Source of the DNA: a virus
Length of the DNA stretch: 59,586 bases
Virus record (IMG/VR): IMGVR_UViG_3300028794_000007
Location: 1 to 59,586 of that record
Strand: one strand, 5' to 3'
A model generated the notes under the pieces. It did not search any database and had not been told where the DNA came from. It saw only the letters and a program-made list of their open reading frames with translations. Position numbers and translations under genes: made by a program. This document shows positions 11,846 through 29,310 of this stretch, one piece after another (position 1 is the first letter of the stretch; every line of letters begins with the position of its first letter).

Positions 11846-12481
11846 TCACGCGGCGCGCCTTCGATCGGCGCCGGCGAGAACCACGCGGGTCGTCATCTCC
11901 GCCAGCCTCGAAGTGACCCGGTCACCGAGGCCAGGTGCGAGAGTCTTCGGGGTCAGGTTCGACGTGATGATCGTCGGGAGCTCTTCCTGGTACCGGTGGT
12001 TCACCAACCGGTAGTTGATCTCCTCGACCCACTCCGAGTTCTTCGCCGCCCCCAAGTCGTCGATCACCAACAACCGGGCATGCGAATACGAGCGGAACGT
12101 CTTCTCCGAGTCGTGCCCCGACTGCGGCCGCAGCTCCGCATACAGGTCCGCGGCGGTCGTGAACATCCAGTTCACCGCGGCACCCGACGTCGTCAGCTCC
12201 CGCACCGCACCGAACGCCTCGAACGTCTTCCCCGTCCCCACCGGCCCCAAGATCAGCAGCGAATCCCCGCGAGTGAGTACCGGGTTGTTCGCCCGTGCCC
12301 GCTCCGCGCACCCATCCGCCAGCAGCTGCGCCCACGCATGCACCTCCGGGTTGGAGATCTGCGCCTCGAGGTAATGGGCGGGGATGCGCTTCCACGACTC
12401 CCGACCGCGGGTGGCGTTCTCGTCGAGCCAGTGACGGTCGATGTGGCCGTGCTCGGCAGGGTCGATCCAGATCGGGTCCAT
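11846..12481 (-). CDS. DnaC-like replicative helicase loader ATPase
   Basis: 211 residues from ATG 12481, one base overlapping the DnaD-like gene. Walker A GPVGTGKT lies at about residues 77-84 and Walker B LLVIDDLG at about 138-145, followed by the sensor-like IITSNLT. This is the AAA+ layout of DnaC/IstB proteins. Paired with an upstream initiator it should load the host replicative helicase onto the phage origin. No phage helicase was found. Confidence 0.88.
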   Translation of the reverse strand: MDPIWIDPAEHGHIDRHWLDENATRGRESWKRIPAHYLEAQISNPEVHAWAQLLADGCAERARANNPVLTRGDSLLILGPVGTGKTFEAFGAVRELTTSGAAVNWMFTTAADLYAELRPQSGHDSEKTFRSYSHARLLVIDDLGAAKNSEWVEEINYRLVNHRYQEELPTIITSNLTPKTLAPGLGDRVTSRLAEMTTRVVLAGADRRRAA

Positions 12482-13320
12482 CACAGGTCCTCGTAGTAGT
12501 CGGCAGGGTCGGTGGGGTTCTGGAACGGGACGTAGCCGCCGGACACGGCCTGCAGCTTCGGCACCGGCGGTTCGTCGTCCCAGCGTTGGCCGTTGAGCCA
12601 CGTCGCCGGATGGAGGATGAACTTCTTCTCGATGCGGGCATTGGCCCACAGCCCAGCCCAGTAGCCGGCGGCTTTGACGAGGCGTTCGGCGTCGAGCCTC
12701 TTGCAGGCTTTGGGCCACGCCTTCTTGGCGTCGGCCTTGCCGACCTTCTTCGGATAGGCGGACCAGAAGGCTTCGAAGAGGTCCGTGCCGTCAGGCGCGG
12801 GAGTCTCTTCTTGTCTTGTTCCTGTATCTGTCTTGTCTTGTCTTGTCTTGGGGGTCGGATTCCCCTTGGGTTCCGACTGGATTCCGCTCGGATTCCCATC
12901 GGAATCCGAGCTACCTCCGCGACCGGGTCCGTCCGGATCGGGGGGTCGGTTCCCCTTGCGAGCAGCATCTTTCTCCCGAAGAGCGTCGATCTCATCGACC
13001 GACTTGTTCCACCGAAGCCACGCCGTAACCCAGTACCCCTGACGCTCATCGTCACGCGCCCACAGCGTGTCCCCGTCGCTAGTTCGTGTTGAAGCAAGTG
13101 ATTGAGCACGTTTTATGACGTCTTTCATGCCGTGACCGACCATCCGCAGGAGCTGAATGTCCGACACGAACCCGTCGCTGCGCTGGTCCACACAGAACGA
13201 CATGACCCGCGCGTAGAGCACTTCGGCCTTCTCGCCAGCCTCCATGAGGGCACTGTCTGTCCAGTACTTCGCGGACATCGGCGCGAAGTTCCCGAGCCTC
13301 CGCGGCTTGTTCACGGGCAT
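12481..13320 (-). CDS. DnaD-like replication initiation protein
   Basis: 279 residues from ATG 13320, overlapping the WhiB stop (TGATG). A winged-helix-like N-terminus (ALMEAGEKAEVLYARVMSFC) is followed by a low-complexity charged linker encoded by a TGTCT tandem run near 12.83 kb and GGATTCC-type repeats. The C-terminal module (FEAFWSAYPKKVGKADAKKA to LHPATWLNGQRW) is common in phage replication proteins. It probably binds the origin and works with the DnaC-like protein. Confidence 0.78.
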   Translation of the reverse strand: MPVNKPRRLGNFAPMSAKYWTDSALMEAGEKAEVLYARVMSFCVDQRSDGFVSDIQLLRMVGHGMKDVIKRAQSLASTRTSDGDTLWARDDERQGYWVTAWLRWNKSVDEIDALREKDAARKGNRPPDPDGPGRGGSSDSDGNPSGIQSEPKGNPTPKTRQDKTDTGTRQEETPAPDGTDLFEAFWSAYPKKVGKADAKKAWPKACKRLDAERLVKAAGYWAGLWANARIEKKFILHPATWLNGQRWDDEPPVPKLQAVSGGYVPFQNPTDPADYYEDL

Positions 13321-13703
13321 CAGGCGGCTTCTCCGTTCATCAGCAGGTTGCGGAGTCGGTAGATCACGAAAGGCGACACCCCGAACCGGCGGGCAACCGC
13401 AGGACCAGACAGGCCCCTGCGCAGCAACGCAACCACCTCCCCCTCCTGCTCGGCGGTAAGCAGCCGGCTGTGATGTTGATGGCTGGGTTCGCGGAGCTTC
13501 CGCCGCTCCGCCGAGGAGAGCCCGCCCCACACGCCGAACTGCTCGTCGTTGTCGAGCGCGTACTGGAGGCATTCGGCCTTCACGGGGCAGGCCAGGCAGA
13601 CCCGTTTGGCGTCACGGTTGGAGGAGCCCTTCTCGGGGTACCAGACCTCCCCGTCGACCTGTTGGCAGAGCCCGTCTGCCATCCATTCGTCTCGCGAGCT
13701 CAT
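13320..13703 (-). CDS. WhiB-family regulator with extra C-terminal HTH
   Basis: 127 residues from ATG 13703 with AAGGAGG eight bases upstream. Four Cys (residues 13, 36, 39, 45) fit the WhiB Fe-S ligand pattern, followed by FGVWGGLSSAERR. An additional segment (LTAEQEGEVVALLRRGLSGP, then AVARRFGVSPFVIYRLRN) looks like a recombinase- or sigma-type helix-turn-helix. WhiB proteins bind sigma factor and DNA in actinobacteria, and phage copies can interfere with host WhiB networks. Confidence 0.9.
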   Translation of the reverse strand: MSSRDEWMADGLCQQVDGEVWYPEKGSSNRDAKRVCLACPVKAECLQYALDNDEQFGVWGGLSSAERRKLREPSHQHHSRLLTAEQEGEVVALLRRGLSGPAVARRFGVSPFVIYRLRNLLMNGEAA

Positions 13704-22290: not shown

Positions 22291-22317
22291 GCGGCCCCAC
22301 GGTGCGCGTGGGGCCGC
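22291..22317. terminator. Strong hairpin after the antirepressor gene
   Basis: GCGGCCCCACG (22291-22301) pairs perfectly with 22307-22317 around GTGCG. On the plus strand TCTTTTCT follows, giving an intrinsic-terminator shape; on the minus strand it lies just past the antirepressor stop and may separate the immediate-early block from the rest. Confidence 0.75.
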
Positions 22318-22326
22318 TCTTTTCTG

Positions 22327-23064
22327 TTAAGCAGCGAGCAGCAGCGGGCCGCTGCCACCCAAAAGTTCGTGGAGCTTCTGAAGCCCCTTCACCGTGATCC
22401 GCAGCTGCGTCGTCACCTGCTGCTCGCCGACACCGGAGTTGAAGAAGTCCCGCGTCCGCACCACCAACCGACCGGTGTCCACCTGGGCCTGGTAGGGCTG
22501 CCCGGTGCGGTCGGTCCAGCTGATCTGCCTCAGGTACTTCGACAGCCGGTTCTGTCCGGTCGAGATCGCCGGGTCGCGATCCAAGATCTGCGCGGCTTCA
22601 CGCAGCGAGTAGTCCCCCGCCGCTTCGGCGAGCTGAGTCCACGAGTTCGCGGCTGGTGCAAGCGCGGCGACCTGCTCCAGCGCGGCGACGTACTTCCGCG
22701 CCATCTCCAGCTCGGTCATCGGCTTCTCGCGGGTGTCGACAAGGCCGGTCTCCCGGAGTTCGCGGAGGATCGCCTTCACTCGAGCCTTGATGGACTTCGC
22801 CGACGGGAGCGTGGATCGGAAGATCAGCTCCCAGATGCCGTCCTCGTAGATGACGGACACACGCTGGTCGCCGCCAGGGGTACCCACGATCTGGGTACCC
22901 TTCTCCGCCTCGTCGAGCAGCCGCGTCGCCTTCTCCGCGTCGCGATAGCCCATCGCCTTCGCGAAAGGTCCGGCCACGACGTAGGCCACGCCACCGTCGG
23001 TCAGGCCGAAGTGCGACGGGTCGAGGCCGTCCCCTGCGTTCGCGAAGAGATCCAGGTCGGTCAT
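22327..23064 (-). CDS. BRO-N / KilA-C type antirepressor
   Basis: 245 residues from ATG 23064. The N-terminal half (VAGPFAKAMGYRDAEKATRL, then YEDGIWELIFRSTLPSAKSI) is a BRO-N domain. The C-terminal half (SLREAAQILDRD, LSKYLRQISW, QVTTQLRITVKGLQKLHELL) matches the phage antirepressor (Ant/KilA-C) domain. It probably counters the repressor or regulates early transcription. Located third in the leftward operon, as in many temperate phages. Confidence 0.88.
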   Translation of the reverse strand: MTDLDLFANAGDGLDPSHFGLTDGGVAYVVAGPFAKAMGYRDAEKATRLLDEAEKGTQIVGTPGGDQRVSVIYEDGIWELIFRSTLPSAKSIKARVKAILRELRETGLVDTREKPMTELEMARKYVAALEQVAALAPAANSWTQLAEAAGDYSLREAAQILDRDPAISTGQNRLSKYLRQISWTDRTGQPYQAQVDTGRLVVRTRDFFNSGVGEQQVTTQLRITVKGLQKLHELLGGSGPLLLAA

Positions 23065-23318
23065 CACGCCACCGCCCGCAGCAAGCCCCGAGCCGCCACC
23101 GAGATCGCAACCTCAGGCGAGCAGAGTCGGCACTGCAGGGTCGTCTTCTCCGTCGCGTGCAGCGGCGGCAACCGACGGGCATGCCCACACCGGAACCGCA
23201 CTCCGAACTCGCCGACCACCATCGAGCCGGATCCGGTGCCGCACCACGGGCAACGGCCGTGGCCCTGCTTGTTGAGGACCTCGCCGATCTCGTCGGGCGC
23301 CATGCGGTACTGGTCCAT
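23064..23318 (-). CDS. Zinc-ribbon protein
   Basis: 84 residues from ATG 23318 with AAGGAG four bases upstream. CPWCGTGS and RFRCGH, then QCRLC supply Cys pairs for one or two zinc sites. It sits between the excisionase-like and antirepressor genes. Function unknown. Confidence 0.65.
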   Translation of the reverse strand: MDQYRMAPDEIGEVLNKQGHGRCPWCGTGSGSMVVGEFGVRFRCGHARRLPPLHATEKTTLQCRLCSPEVAISVAARGLLRAVA

Positions 23319-23399
23319 CACGCTCCTTCAGCAAATTTCAGTTCAACACCGGTGAGGCGGGCGGAGGTGTCTGGGGAGACGAACCCGCCCCACCGGCTG

Positions 23400-23654
23400 C
23401 TAGGCGGCCTTGGGCTCTTCGAGGAGCCGGTCGACCTCGATCGCGGGGATGACGTACAACTGCCCGATCTGCACCGCACGGAGCCGACCTTCGCGGACCA
23501 AACTGAGCACCGTGTCGTAGCCGAGTCCGGTCATCGCGGCGACTTCGCGGGGCTTGTAGGCCTTCCGCTCGGGGGCCTTCACGGCCTTCTCCAGACGGGC
23601 CACCTGAGCGATCAGGTCCTTGACCAGCTTCACCAGCTCGGCGATGCCGGTCAT
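23400..23654 (-). CDS. Excisionase-like winged-HTH protein
   Basis: 84 residues. A short N-terminal coiled coil (ELVKLVKDLIAQVARLEKAV) is followed by YKPREVAAMTGLGYDTVLSL and LRAVQIGQLYVIPAIEVDRL, the MerR/excisionase-type winged helix. It overlaps the Cro-like gene by ATGA. As a recombination directionality factor it would bend attP DNA and favour excision; a transcription-regulator role is the alternative. Confidence 0.75.
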   Translation of the reverse strand: MTGIAELVKLVKDLIAQVARLEKAVKAPERKAYKPREVAAMTGLGYDTVLSLVREGRLRAVQIGQLYVIPAIEVDRLLEEPKAA

Positions 23655-23965
23655 GCCGCGTCCTCGGCTGCTCGGCGTGGACCGGTGGTGCGCTCGGTGC
23701 CCTGCCGCTTCGGCGGGGCCTTCTGCGGCTTGGGCTGCTTGGGGGGTTCGTCGGGGACACCGTCGTTGGTGCCCATGACGTCTTCGAAGGAGATGGCGAG
23801 GGCTCGGGCGATCCGGTGTCCGACTTCGTTGCGGATGGGGTCGTGGCCGCTCTCGATGTTGCGGAGGTAGCCGGCAGAGATACCGAGGCGTTCGGCGAGC
23901 TGAGCCGGCCTGAGGTCCAGCTCTTCCCGTCGGGCTCGGATTCGGGATCCGTTGGGGAGTGGCAT
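23651..23965 (-). CDS. Cro-like XRE repressor
   Basis: 104 residues. The N-terminal XRE helix-turn-helix (IRARREELDLRPAQLAERLG, ISAGYLRNIESGHDP) is followed by a long Pro/Lys/Arg tail. The ATG lies just downstream of a promoter with -35 TTGACT and -10 AAGACT, and has no ribosome site, so the mRNA is probably leaderless. Divergent from the CI-like gene, as expected for a lytic switch protein. Confidence 0.8.
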   Translation of the reverse strand: MPLPNGSRIRARREELDLRPAQLAERLGISAGYLRNIESGHDPIRNEVGHRIARALAISFEDVMGTNDGVPDEPPKQPKPQKAPPKRQGTERTTGPRRAAEDAA

Positions 23966-24151
23966 GTGCAGAGTCTTGCAGAAGTTTGCAGACTAGTCAA
24001 GGTGGGTGATGCAGGTGTTAGCACGAATGCACGATTGTGCGACAGTGCGTGACTCTGCAACACTCTGCACATGAGATTTAGGGGGAAGTGCGCCCGGACC
24101 ACGCGCACCCGGCAGGCCCTGCGATGCAGCGGTCTGCGTTACTCTGCAAAC
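23966..24151. promoter_or_regulatory. Immunity switch: operator arrays and divergent promoters
   Basis: TCTGCA hexamers recur at exact 10-bp steps. Three lie, in minus orientation, at 23967, 23977 and 23987. Two in plus orientation lie at 24054 and 24064, and two more (TCTGCG, TCTGCA) at 24133 and 24143. Leftward: TTGACT (24000-23995), 17 bp, AAGACT (23977-23972), ATG 23965. Rightward: TTGTGC with AACACT before an ATG at 24071, and TACTCT (24140-24145) before ATG 24152. Hexamers cover all of these. Confidence 0.8.
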
Positions 24152-24562
24152 ATGGATGCTCACCGCCGCGAACTCGGCGAGCACGTGCGCGATACGAGAG
24201 AAGCCCAGGGGATCCGCAGTCAAGCCGCACTGGCCGAAGCTGCAGGCATCAGCGCCCGCAGCGTCGCCAAGGTCGAGCTCGGCGACCCCACCACGGGCAA
24301 GACGGTGCTCCGCGCCCTGGAGCGGTACTTCCAGTGGCCCCGGGATTCCATGTCCGAATACATCGCGCGAGGCGGAGACCTGCCGCAGGAGACTCAGGAC
24401 GACGTGGACGCGTCGGCGACGCCTCAGCGCACCGTCGAGATGAGCAACGAGGACATGGTGACGCTGCTCGCCGAGATGGCCGGTCGGGGGAGAGTGAAAG
24501 AGGCAGGCGATCTGCTGGCCAGTTTCATTGAGATCCAGTCCGAAGCTCGCCAGCGTACGTAG
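24152..24562 (+). CDS. XRE-type immunity repressor
   Basis: 136 residues from ATG 24152. An N-terminal helix-turn-helix (HVRDTREAQGIRSQAALAEA, AGISARSVAKVELGD) is followed by an acidic linker and a C-terminal helical part (EDMVTLLAEMAGRGRVKEAG). No ribosome site precedes 24152, suggesting a leaderless message; an upstream ATG at 24071 would add 27 mostly basic residues. Divergence from the Cro-like gene and the operator arrays mark it as the CI equivalent. Confidence 0.8.
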   Translation: MDAHRRELGEHVRDTREAQGIRSQAALAEAAGISARSVAKVELGDPTTGKTVLRALERYFQWPRDSMSEYIARGGDLPQETQDDVDASATPQRTVEMSNEDMVTLLAEMAGRGRVKEAGDLLASFIEIQSEARQRT

Positions 24563-24717
24563 TTGGTGCCACTAAGCAACCCGTGTGACAGATCTGTGAC
24601 ACGTGTTGCAACGTGCGTGTTGCTTCACCCAAGTGGCGGTAACAACACGTCTGAACAGTGCGAATGGTCAGGTACGAAGGGGCTAAGCGCCCTACGGGGA
24701 GAGCAAGGGAGCCGCGC
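24563..24717. promoter_or_regulatory. Intergenic region with short dyads
   Basis: Contains the palindrome ACAGATCTGT, and CGTGTTGC twice with an inverted ACAACACG downstream. These could be operator or integrase arm-type sites between the repressor and the membrane-protein gene. No gene is seen. Confidence 0.4.
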
Positions 24718-24993
24718 GTGAATGAACGAATCAGATCACTGCCACTGCATCGCTGGCTCCTGGTCGTCGCCGTTGGGTTGAGTGCCCCGGCGGTGCCGAT
24801 CGGCATCCTGACTTGGGTCTACCGGTGGTCGAGCGCCCTGTTCCTCGTGAACGTCCTCGCGATCGCGGTGCTGGTGATCGTGGCGGAGCTGCGGCGGCAG
24901 GACTTCAACCGGGACCGCCGGGATCACCAGCGAGGCAGACGGGTGGACCGGCTGTGTGAGGTTGTGAGCGAGATGGAACGCAGCAGAGGCTGA
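24718..24993 (+). CDS. Small two-helix membrane protein, possible superinfection exclusion
   Basis: 91 residues from GTG 24718 with AAGGGAG six bases upstream. Two hydrophobic helices (about residues 13-34 and 38-56) are followed by a very basic cytoplasmic tail (RRQDFNRDRRDHQRGRR). Its position between repressor and integrase implies expression in the lysogen, where such proteins often block superinfection. That role is inference. Confidence 0.65.
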   Translation: MNERIRSLPLHRWLLVVAVGLSAPAVPIGILTWVYRWSSALFLVNVLAIAVLVIVAELRRQDFNRDRRDHQRGRRVDRLCEVVSEMERSRG

Positions 24994-25041
24994 CCTGCTC
25001 GGCGACCCTGGACCCTGGTCGCCCCGCTCTACACTGGAGGC

Positions 25042-26271
25042 ATGGTGGCGAGGCCACGCACTGACATCGGGACCTTCGGGCGAATCAACGTCCGCGAGGT
25101 GTCCCCCGGCGTGCATGAGGCCCGTGCCCGGTTCCGTCTCCGCAACGGCCGGTTGAAGCCTGTGAAGCGCCGCGCGTCGTCCCGGACTGCTGCTGAGCGC
25201 GCATTGAAGAAGGCCATGGCGAAGCTCGCAGATGAGGTGTCGGGTAAGGCGATCAACGGTGAGACCCGGTTCGGGCACGTGATCGACCTGTGGCTGACAG
25301 ATTTCCAGTCGAAGGTGGAGCGCGGGGAACGCGCCCACAAGAGCCTCTACGACTACCAGGACAGCGCTGAGCAGCTCCGCAAGCACATGGGTGAGCTGAC
25401 GTGTGGCGAGGCGGAGAACGCCGGACTCTGCGACGAAACCCTGAAAGCTGTTCGGGCGGATGCGGCGAAGTCGAACCGTTCGAAGCGGGGCGCCGGCGCG
25501 GCTGCGGCGAAGCGCGCGAAGACGGTGTTGACGGGGATCTGCGGGTACGCGGTGCGGCATGGGGCGATGAAGGTAAACCCGGCGAAGTCTGCGGAAGCGA
25601 TCGAGCAGGGCGTGAAGGAAGACGTCCGAGCTCTGGAGCCGGACGAACGCCGCGACTTCCTCACCAAGCTGCGGGCGTGGTGTGGGGAGAAGGCCGAGTC
25701 GAGCTCGCGTGGGGGTCTGCGGACTCAGGCGTGGCGGGACCTCCCGGACGCCGTAGAGGGAATGCTGGCCACCGGGTCCCGGCCGGGTGAGATCCTGGCT
25801 GCCCTGGGCGCGAGTGTCGACCCGTCGGACCGGACGGTCCTGCTCGATCATCACTTGGTGCGTATCGAGGGTGAAGGGTTGGTGCGGAAGTTCCGCCGTA
25901 AGGGCGGGAAGGCCGGGATCCAACCGATGTACCCGTCGTGGGCGGCACCGATGTTCGCGCGGCGGAAGCTGGCTGCTGGTGAGGGTCCCCTGTTCCCGAC
26001 GTGGAACGGCGAGTGGACCGACCCCAGCAACTTCCAGAAGCGGTTCCGTGAGGCGTGTGACGGGATCGGGTACGAGTGGGTGGCGGCGCGGATGTTGCGG
26101 CACACGGTGGCGACGCACATCGTGGATGCGGGTGGGTCGAACGAGTCTGCTGCTGATCAGTTGGGGAACACGCCGCAGGTGGTGCAGCAGCATTATCGGC
26201 GGAAGCGGTCGACGAACCCGGAGACGGCGGCGGCGTTGGAGTCGCTGTTGGACGGCGACACGGGTTCCTGA
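25042..26271 (+). CDS. int: Tyrosine-family site-specific integrase
   Basis: 409 residues from ATG 25042 with GGAGG upstream. An arm-binding/SAM-like N-terminal region is followed by the catalytic domain: Arg247 in TGSRPGEIL, basic beta-hairpin with RRKGGK (about 286-291), RMLRHT (350-355) and Tyr385 in VVQQHYRRK. The His of the HxxR box is Arg350 and the LGH position is LGN (Asn376), variants that may be tolerated. It should integrate the phage at the tRNA 3' end matching the core near 29.8 kb. Confidence 0.92.
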   Translation: MVARPRTDIGTFGRINVREVSPGVHEARARFRLRNGRLKPVKRRASSRTAAERALKKAMAKLADEVSGKAINGETRFGHVIDLWLTDFQSKVERGERAHKSLYDYQDSAEQLRKHMGELTCGEAENAGLCDETLKAVRADAAKSNRSKRGAGAAAAKRAKTVLTGICGYAVRHGAMKVNPAKSAEAIEQGVKEDVRALEPDERRDFLTKLRAWCGEKAESSSRGGLRTQAWRDLPDAVEGMLATGSRPGEILAALGASVDPSDRTVLLDHHLVRIEGEGLVRKFRRKGGKAGIQPMYPSWAAPMFARRKLAAGEGPLFPTWNGEWTDPSNFQKRFREACDGIGYEWVAARMLRHTVATHIVDAGGSNESAADQLGNTPQVVQQHYRRKRSTNPETAAALESLLDGDTGS

Positions 26272-26326
26272 CCGGACGATCCGCGAGGTGTGACGTCAGA
26301 CAGGGGCAGAGACCCTTGGAGGCGGC

Positions 26327-28359: not shown

Positions 28360-29310
28360 ATGGATGACCGCATCAACCACGCGCTCACCGACGAAGACCG
28401 CGTCCGGATCGGTCAGATCATCCGCGCCCGCCGTGCCGAGCTCAATCTCACGCAGGACGACGTCGTCGAACTCGGCGGACCTTCTCTCGGCACGCAGCGA
28501 AGCATCGAGAACGGCCGGGCGGAGCGCTACCAGCCGAAGACTCTTCGCTCGGTCGACGATGTACTTCGGTGGCGGCCGGGGACAGCCGCCAAGCTCGTCT
28601 CCGGAAACCTGGTCGCCCTGGAAAGCGCGGAAGCGCCGCCTGGCGATCTGGGCATGCTGCTCCGGGATGCTCGGCTGGCGGCAGGACGGTCAATTCGCGC
28701 AGCTGCTCGTGTCGCCAATCTGTCCGAAGCGCGCTGGCGGCAGCTGGAGGCTGGGTACGAACTGCGAGATGGGCATCAGCTTCCCGCTCGTCCCAAGCCT
28801 GCCACCGTCGTTCAGGCCGCCGACGCGGTGGGGGTTGACGCAGATGCCGCCCTGAAAGCAGCGGGGCTCGACGACGTAGATCCGGCCGCCGTGCGGGCAT
28901 CAGGTCGAACCGAGGCTGTCGACGACCGCATCGTGGCCCCGCCGCTCACCGACGAGAACTTCTGGACCATGTTTGGGTGGCGCGTCTCCACGGCTCGGGA
29001 TGACGCTGGGATCTCGCAGGTGGGCCTCGCCCGCGCGTTGGCCGATCAGGGTCTGCCGTACCACCAGGCGACGATCTACAAGATCGAGACTGGCCAACGA
29101 AAAGTACCCGCTAACGAGCTGGTTCCTCTCGCCCAAGCTCTCGGCGTCACCGTTGACATGCTGCTCGGACGCGGGCCCGACGATGACCGCGCCGCTGCCG
29201 CGACGATCGACCGTCTCGTATACCTCGTCCGCAGCGCCAACGTCGCCGAACTACAGCGTCTGCGTGATGTGGTCGACACCGCCCTTGCGATCAGGCTGGA
29301 GGGCGAGTGA
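28360..29310 (+). CDS. Protein with three XRE helix-turn-helix domains
   Basis: 316 residues. The first HTH covers about residues 15-60 (IGQIIRARRAELNLTQDDVV). The second starts near residue 95 (LGMLLRDARLAAGRSIRAAA). The third starts near residue 205 (FGWRVSTARDDAGISQVGLA, then IYKIETGQRKVP). Three XRE domains in one chain suggest binding to spaced or multiple operators. Position implies expression in the lysogen. Targets unknown. Confidence 0.8.
   Translation: MDDRINHALTDEDRVRIGQIIRARRAELNLTQDDVVELGGPSLGTQRSIENGRAERYQPKTLRSVDDVLRWRPGTAAKLVSGNLVALESAEAPPGDLGMLLRDARLAAGRSIRAAARVANLSEARWRQLEAGYELRDGHQLPARPKPATVVQAADAVGVDADAALKAAGLDDVDPAAVRASGRTEAVDDRIVAPPLTDENFWTMFGWRVSTARDDAGISQVGLARALADQGLPYHQATIYKIETGQRKVPANELVPLAQALGVTVDMLLGRGPDDDRAAAATIDRLVYLVRSANVAELQRLRDVVDTALAIRLEGE

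Follow-up and report, generated by a model that had tools for sequence, protein, structure and literature searches.

The intergenic region at positions 23966 to 24151 of a 59,586-base virus record (IMGVR_UViG_3300028794_000007, analyzed at full length and here called the window) carries three arrays of hexamers set one helical turn apart, on which lambda-repressor-fold proteins probably line up in head-to-tail order, with one subunit per turn, so as to cover three promoters, the repressor itself probably being made in two isoforms. The array, its phasing and conservation, the promoter geometry, the conservation of the reading frame, and the co-variation with the HTH domains were computed; that the repressor binds cooperatively along a single DNA face appears to be the best reading of these sequence comparisons.

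The window contains recognizable genes of a tailed phage (terminase, major head protein, tape measure, replication initiator, and annealing protein), and it is best explained as a temperate actinophage with the region 23966 to 24151 as its immunity switch. This region is flanked by divergently transcribed HTH_3 and HTH_31 genes, a lambda-type arrangement that is kept in the loci used. On the minus strand lie the genes for a Cro-like lambda-repressor-fold HTH protein of 104 residues with a conserved Pro/Lys-rich tail (23651 to 23965), directly after it in the leftward operon an HTH_17 excisionase-like protein of 84 residues (23400 to 23654), and an antirepressor with Bro-N and KilAC domains (22327 to 23067). 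The plus strand encodes the repressor (24152 to 24562), whose 136 residues comprise an HTH domain, a flexible linker, and a C-terminal helical module, and a tyrosine integrase of 409 residues (25042 to 26271). All five assignments come from family matches, complemented by predicted folds for the Cro-like protein and the repressor and by a similarity search for the integrase, which matched proteins of Arthrobacter and Gordonia phages at about 30 to 33% identity. According to structure models built from two-sequence alignments and used solely for the fold class, the Cro-like protein and the repressor are predicted to adopt the XRE (lambda-repressor) fold and not the winged fold. The tail of the Cro-like family (23654 to 23780 in the window; PDEPPKQPK...PPKRQD...GPRR) is conserved in Pro, Lys, and Arg and does not track the operator sequence. 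A 90-residue protein with hydrophobic stretches and no family match is encoded between repressor and integrase (24721 to 24993), and downstream of the integrase there is a 316-residue protein with at least two XRE domains (28360 to 29310).

The Cro-side array consists of three exact TCTGCA boxes on the minus strand, at 23967 to 23972 (closest to the Cro start), 23977 to 23982, and 23987 to 23992. The other two arrays are on the plus strand: the middle array combines a degenerate box, AGTGCG (24044 to 24049), with exact boxes at 24054 to 24059 and 24064 to 24069, and the repressor-side array combines the degenerate boxes GATGCA (24123 to 24128) and TCTGCG (24133 to 24138) with an exact box that overlaps the -10 element (24143 to 24148). 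The degenerate boxes were assigned with a box matrix, and when the window was scanned with this matrix, the top three triplets on either strand fell in the switch region only. The sequence-only reading had described seven copies, one of them degenerate, always exactly 10 bp apart within clusters of three, two, and two. The seven copies are present (six exact ones plus TCTGCG at 24133), as are the three clusters, but with AGTGCG at 24044 and GATGCA at 24123 an arrangement of three, three, and three fits better than the two pairs. The spacing is exact as well: TCTGCA is not enriched in the window (26 found, 24.7 expected), whereas same-strand pairs at exactly 10 bp occur three times in the 59.6-kb record, all in the switch region. 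Over 300 first-order Markov simulations, such pairs averaged 0.010 and never numbered more than 1. Nor did any hexamer form three of them in 5000 simulated stretches of 186 bp. One other stretch of the window, approximately 12,700 to 12,990, contains three pairs, the source being a TCTTG tandem repeat. Within it, eight TCTTG and about five 11-bp TCGGATTCCCA units (12809 to 12907) lie inside a replication-initiator-like gene (12481 to 13572, minus strand) and resemble an origin with iterons inside the initiator gene.

A scan with Cro led to a related locus, L003, in a prophage of Amycolatopsis jejuensis; weaker loci from the viral-contig scans (L002, L004, and L005) were not used, and an integrase scan of viral contigs gave no locus. 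With an alignment of 16 Cro sequences, matches at an E value of 1e-12 or better were obtained in 22 of 390 genomes of the A. jejuensis family, and a class-wide search matched 2 of 394 genomes, one of which (G001) is the same Amycolatopsis. The resulting switch set has 24 members, i.e., the window, L003, and 22 loci from 20 other genomes of the family of L003 (23 relatives). Dropped before counting were the lone Cro-like genes of genome G228 except L025 (L019, L026 to L031, L055, and L057 to L060), a match at a contig end (L050), a second copy in G173 with the same Cro (L024/L053), and L009 and L061. For the G228 genes L019, L026, L055, and L057 to L060, the upstream DNA was judged by eye to be without arrays; this genome has at least eight Cro-like genes, most of them without arrays where inspected and apparently domesticated regulator copies. 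No Cro start was assigned in L048, and Cro-side counts are therefore out of 23. In a phage collection, tblastn with the window Cro gave just three weak Klebsiella matches (E values of 6e-3 to 8e-3), and with the window repressor, the L054 Cro, and the L013 Cro no convincing relative; the L054 Cro likewise found none among plasmids, and a DNA search with positions 22300 to 26300 returned nothing beyond short antirepressor matches. Of the 21 regions compared, 10 have a relative of the integrase close to the switch (L003 itself and 9 of the 20 stretches fetched), so these look like mosaic mobile elements. In the open-license full-text literature, no description of such an actinophage switch or of the Cro-like family was found.

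Among the relatives the register is kept while the word changes. In 19 of the 24 loci, leaving out the window, L045, L049, and L051 as self or near-duplicates and L048 for its missing Cro start, identity at a lag of 10 was 0.49, 0.50, and 0.44 in the three clusters versus an expected 0.25 to 0.27 (z = 11.4, 12.7, and 8.4), with secondary peaks at lag 20; none of 500 dinucleotide shuffles was as high, and three coding controls gave z values of 1.7, -0.6, and 0.5 at lag 10. The register is not invariant: the best pooled lag per locus was 10 in 18 of 24 loci, 20 in three, 9 in two, and 19 in one, and by eye the Cro-side spacing is 9 bp in L016, L021, L045, and L048. Overall, the 10-bp phasing seen in the window is thus preserved in relatives, and the hexamer varies between phages; the sequence-only reading therefore withstood the comparison with homologues on which it had staked its refutation. 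The window shares the word TCTGCA with L054 and L056; the others listed are TCTGTA or TCTGGn in L010 and L011, TCTGCG in L014, TCTGCGG in L023, CATGCGG in L017, L049, and L052, and GGTACG in L022. A second group of loci has its Cro-side boxes in the opposite orientation. Clusters within one locus resemble each other more than clusters across loci do (z = 6.1, 7.8, and 6.4; 0 of 5000 permutations), which is expected if each phage has one reader of the word.

The box sequence varies together with the HTH domain of the Cro-like protein and with that of the repressor, which fits binding by the repressor. Specifically, box distance correlated with the HTH distance of Cro (r = 0.49) and of the repressor (r = 0.51) in Mantel tests, which leave shared ancestry in, but not with the Cro tail (r = 0.06) or with the C-terminus of the repressor (r = -0.02), the latter control being a partly saturated alignment. 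A single XRE protein, for example the Cro-like one in the manner of Apl, might instead read the arrays, with the other acting elsewhere or by protein contact. There is precedent in phage 186 Apl, a single protein on one-turn direct repeats, and the HTH distances of Cro and repressor are themselves correlated (r = 0.62), so that one protein could carry the signal of the other. For each HTH domain, however, the correlation with box distance remains significant once the other is partialled out (partial r = 0.26 for Cro and 0.30 for the repressor; P < 0.001), and we regard a single reader as unlikely, at perhaps a one-in-four level of belief. In helix 3, as judged by eye, Cro proteins with R before the conserved N mostly go with TCTGC, and the four with E or D (L010, L011, L012, and L015) mostly with TCTG or CCTG plus a G or T; an exception is L013, which has R. 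The C-terminal modules of the repressor (24410 to 24562 in the window; also L003, L011, L014, L020, L047, L048, and L052) are swapped independently of the HTH part. The pairs L048/L052 and L020/L052 are each 82% identical in the aligned C-terminal part and only 40% and 32% identical, respectively, in the aligned N-terminal part, and their words differ. The swapped modules may match different antirepressors.

The sequence-only reading had set the hexamers apart from the usual dyad operators, and the comparison bears this out. The core TGCA is self-complementary and generates an inverted repeat, TGCA-N6-TGCA, whose 10-bp center spacing would suit an ordinary dyad operator for a normal HTH dimer. 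In relatives, however, the register persists with words such as CATGCGG and TCTGG that lack self-complementarity, and on this ground the dyad reading of TGCA-N6-TGCA was rejected; in the 18 loci of this kind, palindrome z values were 0.6 to 1.7 versus 8.5 to 13.6 for direct repeats. Whether or not the core is self-complementary, the signal lies in the direct repeats (z = 6 to 14) and the palindrome score stays near background (z = 0.6 to 1.7), so that the dyad symmetry of lambda-type operators is absent. Ordinary dyad operators are accordingly improbable.

Another candidate for filling the arrays is the winged-HTH (HTH_17) excisionase- or BldC-like protein of the leftward operon. Its gene directly follows cro in the window, and BldC and recombination directionality factors (RDFs) are described as binding head to tail on one-turn direct repeats. 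By eye, however, arrays are also present where the next gene is of another kind (L010, L016, L020, and L052) or where none was found (L013), i.e., the protein is not encoded adjacently in at least five array-bearing loci, and on this ground it was rejected as the binder. No comparable array was found elsewhere in the window, in which the place of the att site was not located; the window thus has no att-site array, which further argues against the HTH_17 protein, and we give this explanation very little credence. A dual RDF and switch repressor of the Apl type was rejected for the same want of a second array in the window.

The arrays coincide with three predicted promoters. The Cro promoter (23972 to 24000, minus strand) is predicted from the sequence to consist of TTGACT (24000 to 23995), a 17-bp spacer, and AAGACT (23977 to 23972), 6 nt from the Cro ATG. 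For the long repressor, P2 (24035 to 24064, plus strand) would combine TTGTGC, 18 bp, and AACACT, 6 nt from the ATG at 24071; this -10 element is poor and weaker than in relatives. P3, for the short repressor, is predicted from conserved geometry as the -10 element TACTCT (24140 to 24145, plus strand), 6 nt from the ATG at 24152 and lacking a -35-like TTG. In the relatives and the window, TTGA[CT] stands at -34 to -37 of the Cro start in 19 of 23 loci, and [TC]ANNNT exactly 6 nt before the short repressor start in 21 of 24 (background of 0.011 per position). TANNNT precedes the middle start by 6 to 8 nt in 20 of 24 loci, the window not among them (background of 0.001 per position). TTG at -34 to -38 was found at the middle start in 20 of 23 listed loci versus 4 of 24 at the short start. 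This start-adjacent geometry makes all three promoters look leaderless, that of the short repressor without a -35 element. The sequence-only reading, which had the hexamers cover both divergent promoters and the probable leaderless starts, counted two start sites; there are three, since ATG 24071 stands directly after the middle cluster and in the repressor frame, a start that had been missed together with its promoter. In nearly every locus, the -10 element overlaps the last box of the rightward arrays, and part of the conservation of that box is therefore promoter constraint; that the repeats are nothing but -10 and spacer elements of leaderless genes plus chance is nonetheless scarcely credible, since they extend about 20 bp further upstream and change sequence in concert, one group's Cro-side repeats point against the promoter, and simulation never gave three 10-bp pairs.

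The middle start opens an in-frame N-terminal extension of the repressor, assigned by frame conservation, which in the window is a basic stretch of 27 residues (MRFRGKCARTTRTRQALRCSGLRYSAN; 24071 to 24151, plus strand). Across the loci, this second start lies 78 to 108 nt upstream of the first, giving basic extensions of 26 to 36 residues. It is in the repressor frame in 24 of 24 loci, with eight different distances, each divisible by three, the in-frame ATGs having been chosen by eye; when the frame condition was dropped (pattern TANNNT-N6..8-RTG), 20 of 21 promoter-preceded starts were in frame and one was out, and the pattern had no match in the window, L013, L049, or L051. In L013, by eye, the middle array is not beside an ATG, and the start of the extension lies further downstream and follows an AGGAGG-like site. 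The extension has no in-frame stops, whereas the other two frames have stops in 16 and 11 loci, and Lys plus Arg make up 27% of its residues versus 10 to 11% in the other frames. In three close pairs, amino acid changes were below expectation (4 versus 9.0, 11 versus 19.8, and 15 versus 23.8; simulated P of 0.002, 0 of 2000, and 0 of 2000); between the window and L003, the constraint was not significant (P = 0.08). GC at third positions is not raised, and the codon usage is hence not typical. Taken together, these comparisons indicate protein-level selection, and the extension is most likely translated; that it serves as a basic arm altering DNA affinity is a guess.

In the mechanism that we favor, the hexamers are putative operators, each bound by one lambda-repressor-fold HTH domain. 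With neighboring boxes one turn apart on the same strand, the subunits would line up head to tail along a single DNA face and hence fill the arrays cooperatively. The three arrays would occupy the -10 and spacer regions of three leaderless promoters, one of them driving Cro and the lytic operon leftward and the other two driving the long and the short repressor rightward. The Cro-like protein and the repressor would read common boxes, so that whichever protein fills them shuts the opposing promoter or promoters. P2, with its -35 element, may act as a strong establishment promoter, and P3, lacking one, as a weaker maintenance promoter. The 9-bp Cro-side spacings, the reversed Cro-side boxes of the second group of loci, and the poor P2 -10 element of the window tell against this mechanism.

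By analogy, the switch would work like 186 Apl or lambda CII while standing outside both families. Apl binds as cooperative monomers to seven hexamer operators at the switch, direct repeats 10 to 11 bp apart, represses both switch promoters, and also acts as excisionase on five sites at att (PMC7498355). One-turn direct repeats covering the switch promoters are thus common to both systems, but the 186 promoters run face to face and not divergently, and the spacing here is essentially 10 with three promoters and a second XRE protein that co-varies with the common boxes. The CII site, TTGC-N6-TTGC, likewise has a one-turn period. The subunits of CII are oriented alike on a direct repeat (PMC9986795), which is the likeness to the present arrays; CII, however, is an activator bound as a dimer of dimers to one pair of repeats, whereas the three-box arrays over -10 regions look repressive. 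BldC and the winged-HTH RDFs RdfS and Pukovnik Xis form head-to-tail oligomers with about one subunit per 9 to 10 bp (PMC5859096, PMC11963761); they have the winged-HTH fold, in contrast to the XRE fold predicted for the co-varying proteins here. Phage phiC31 is reported to produce three in-frame repressor isoforms that differ N-terminally and have dispersed sites, the BPs repressor uses palindromic half-sites of 12 bp separated by 5 or 8 bp, and the L5 repressor binds as a monomer to asymmetric dispersed sites (PMC4557955). The switch described here would share N-terminally different in-frame repressors from one locus with phiC31, differing in that two isoforms are predicted, each from a leaderless promoter of its own and the longer one bearing a short basic arm, and it would join BPs and L5 as actinophage immunity systems with unusual operators.

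It is conceivable, though we hold it with somewhat less than even confidence, that these loci form a distinct class of switch, in which a repressor and a Cro protein of XRE fold form competing head-to-tail filaments along hexamer arrays of one-turn spacing that span three leaderless promoters, a fast-changing hexamer sets the immunity type, and nested promoters yield a short repressor and a long one with a basic arm. Textbook repressor-fold switches use dyad operators. Few phage genetic tools exist for the antibiotic-producing hosts, Amycolatopsis and its relatives. The combination of fixed spacing and changing word provides a natural set of operator and recognition-helix pairs for studying the evolution of specificity, and the switch family links operator design to immunity groups. 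Nested in-frame starts would offer a simple route to two repressor proteins per gene without a CII-like activator; if the long form indeed differs in DNA affinity, the establishment and maintenance repressors would be chemically different proteins.
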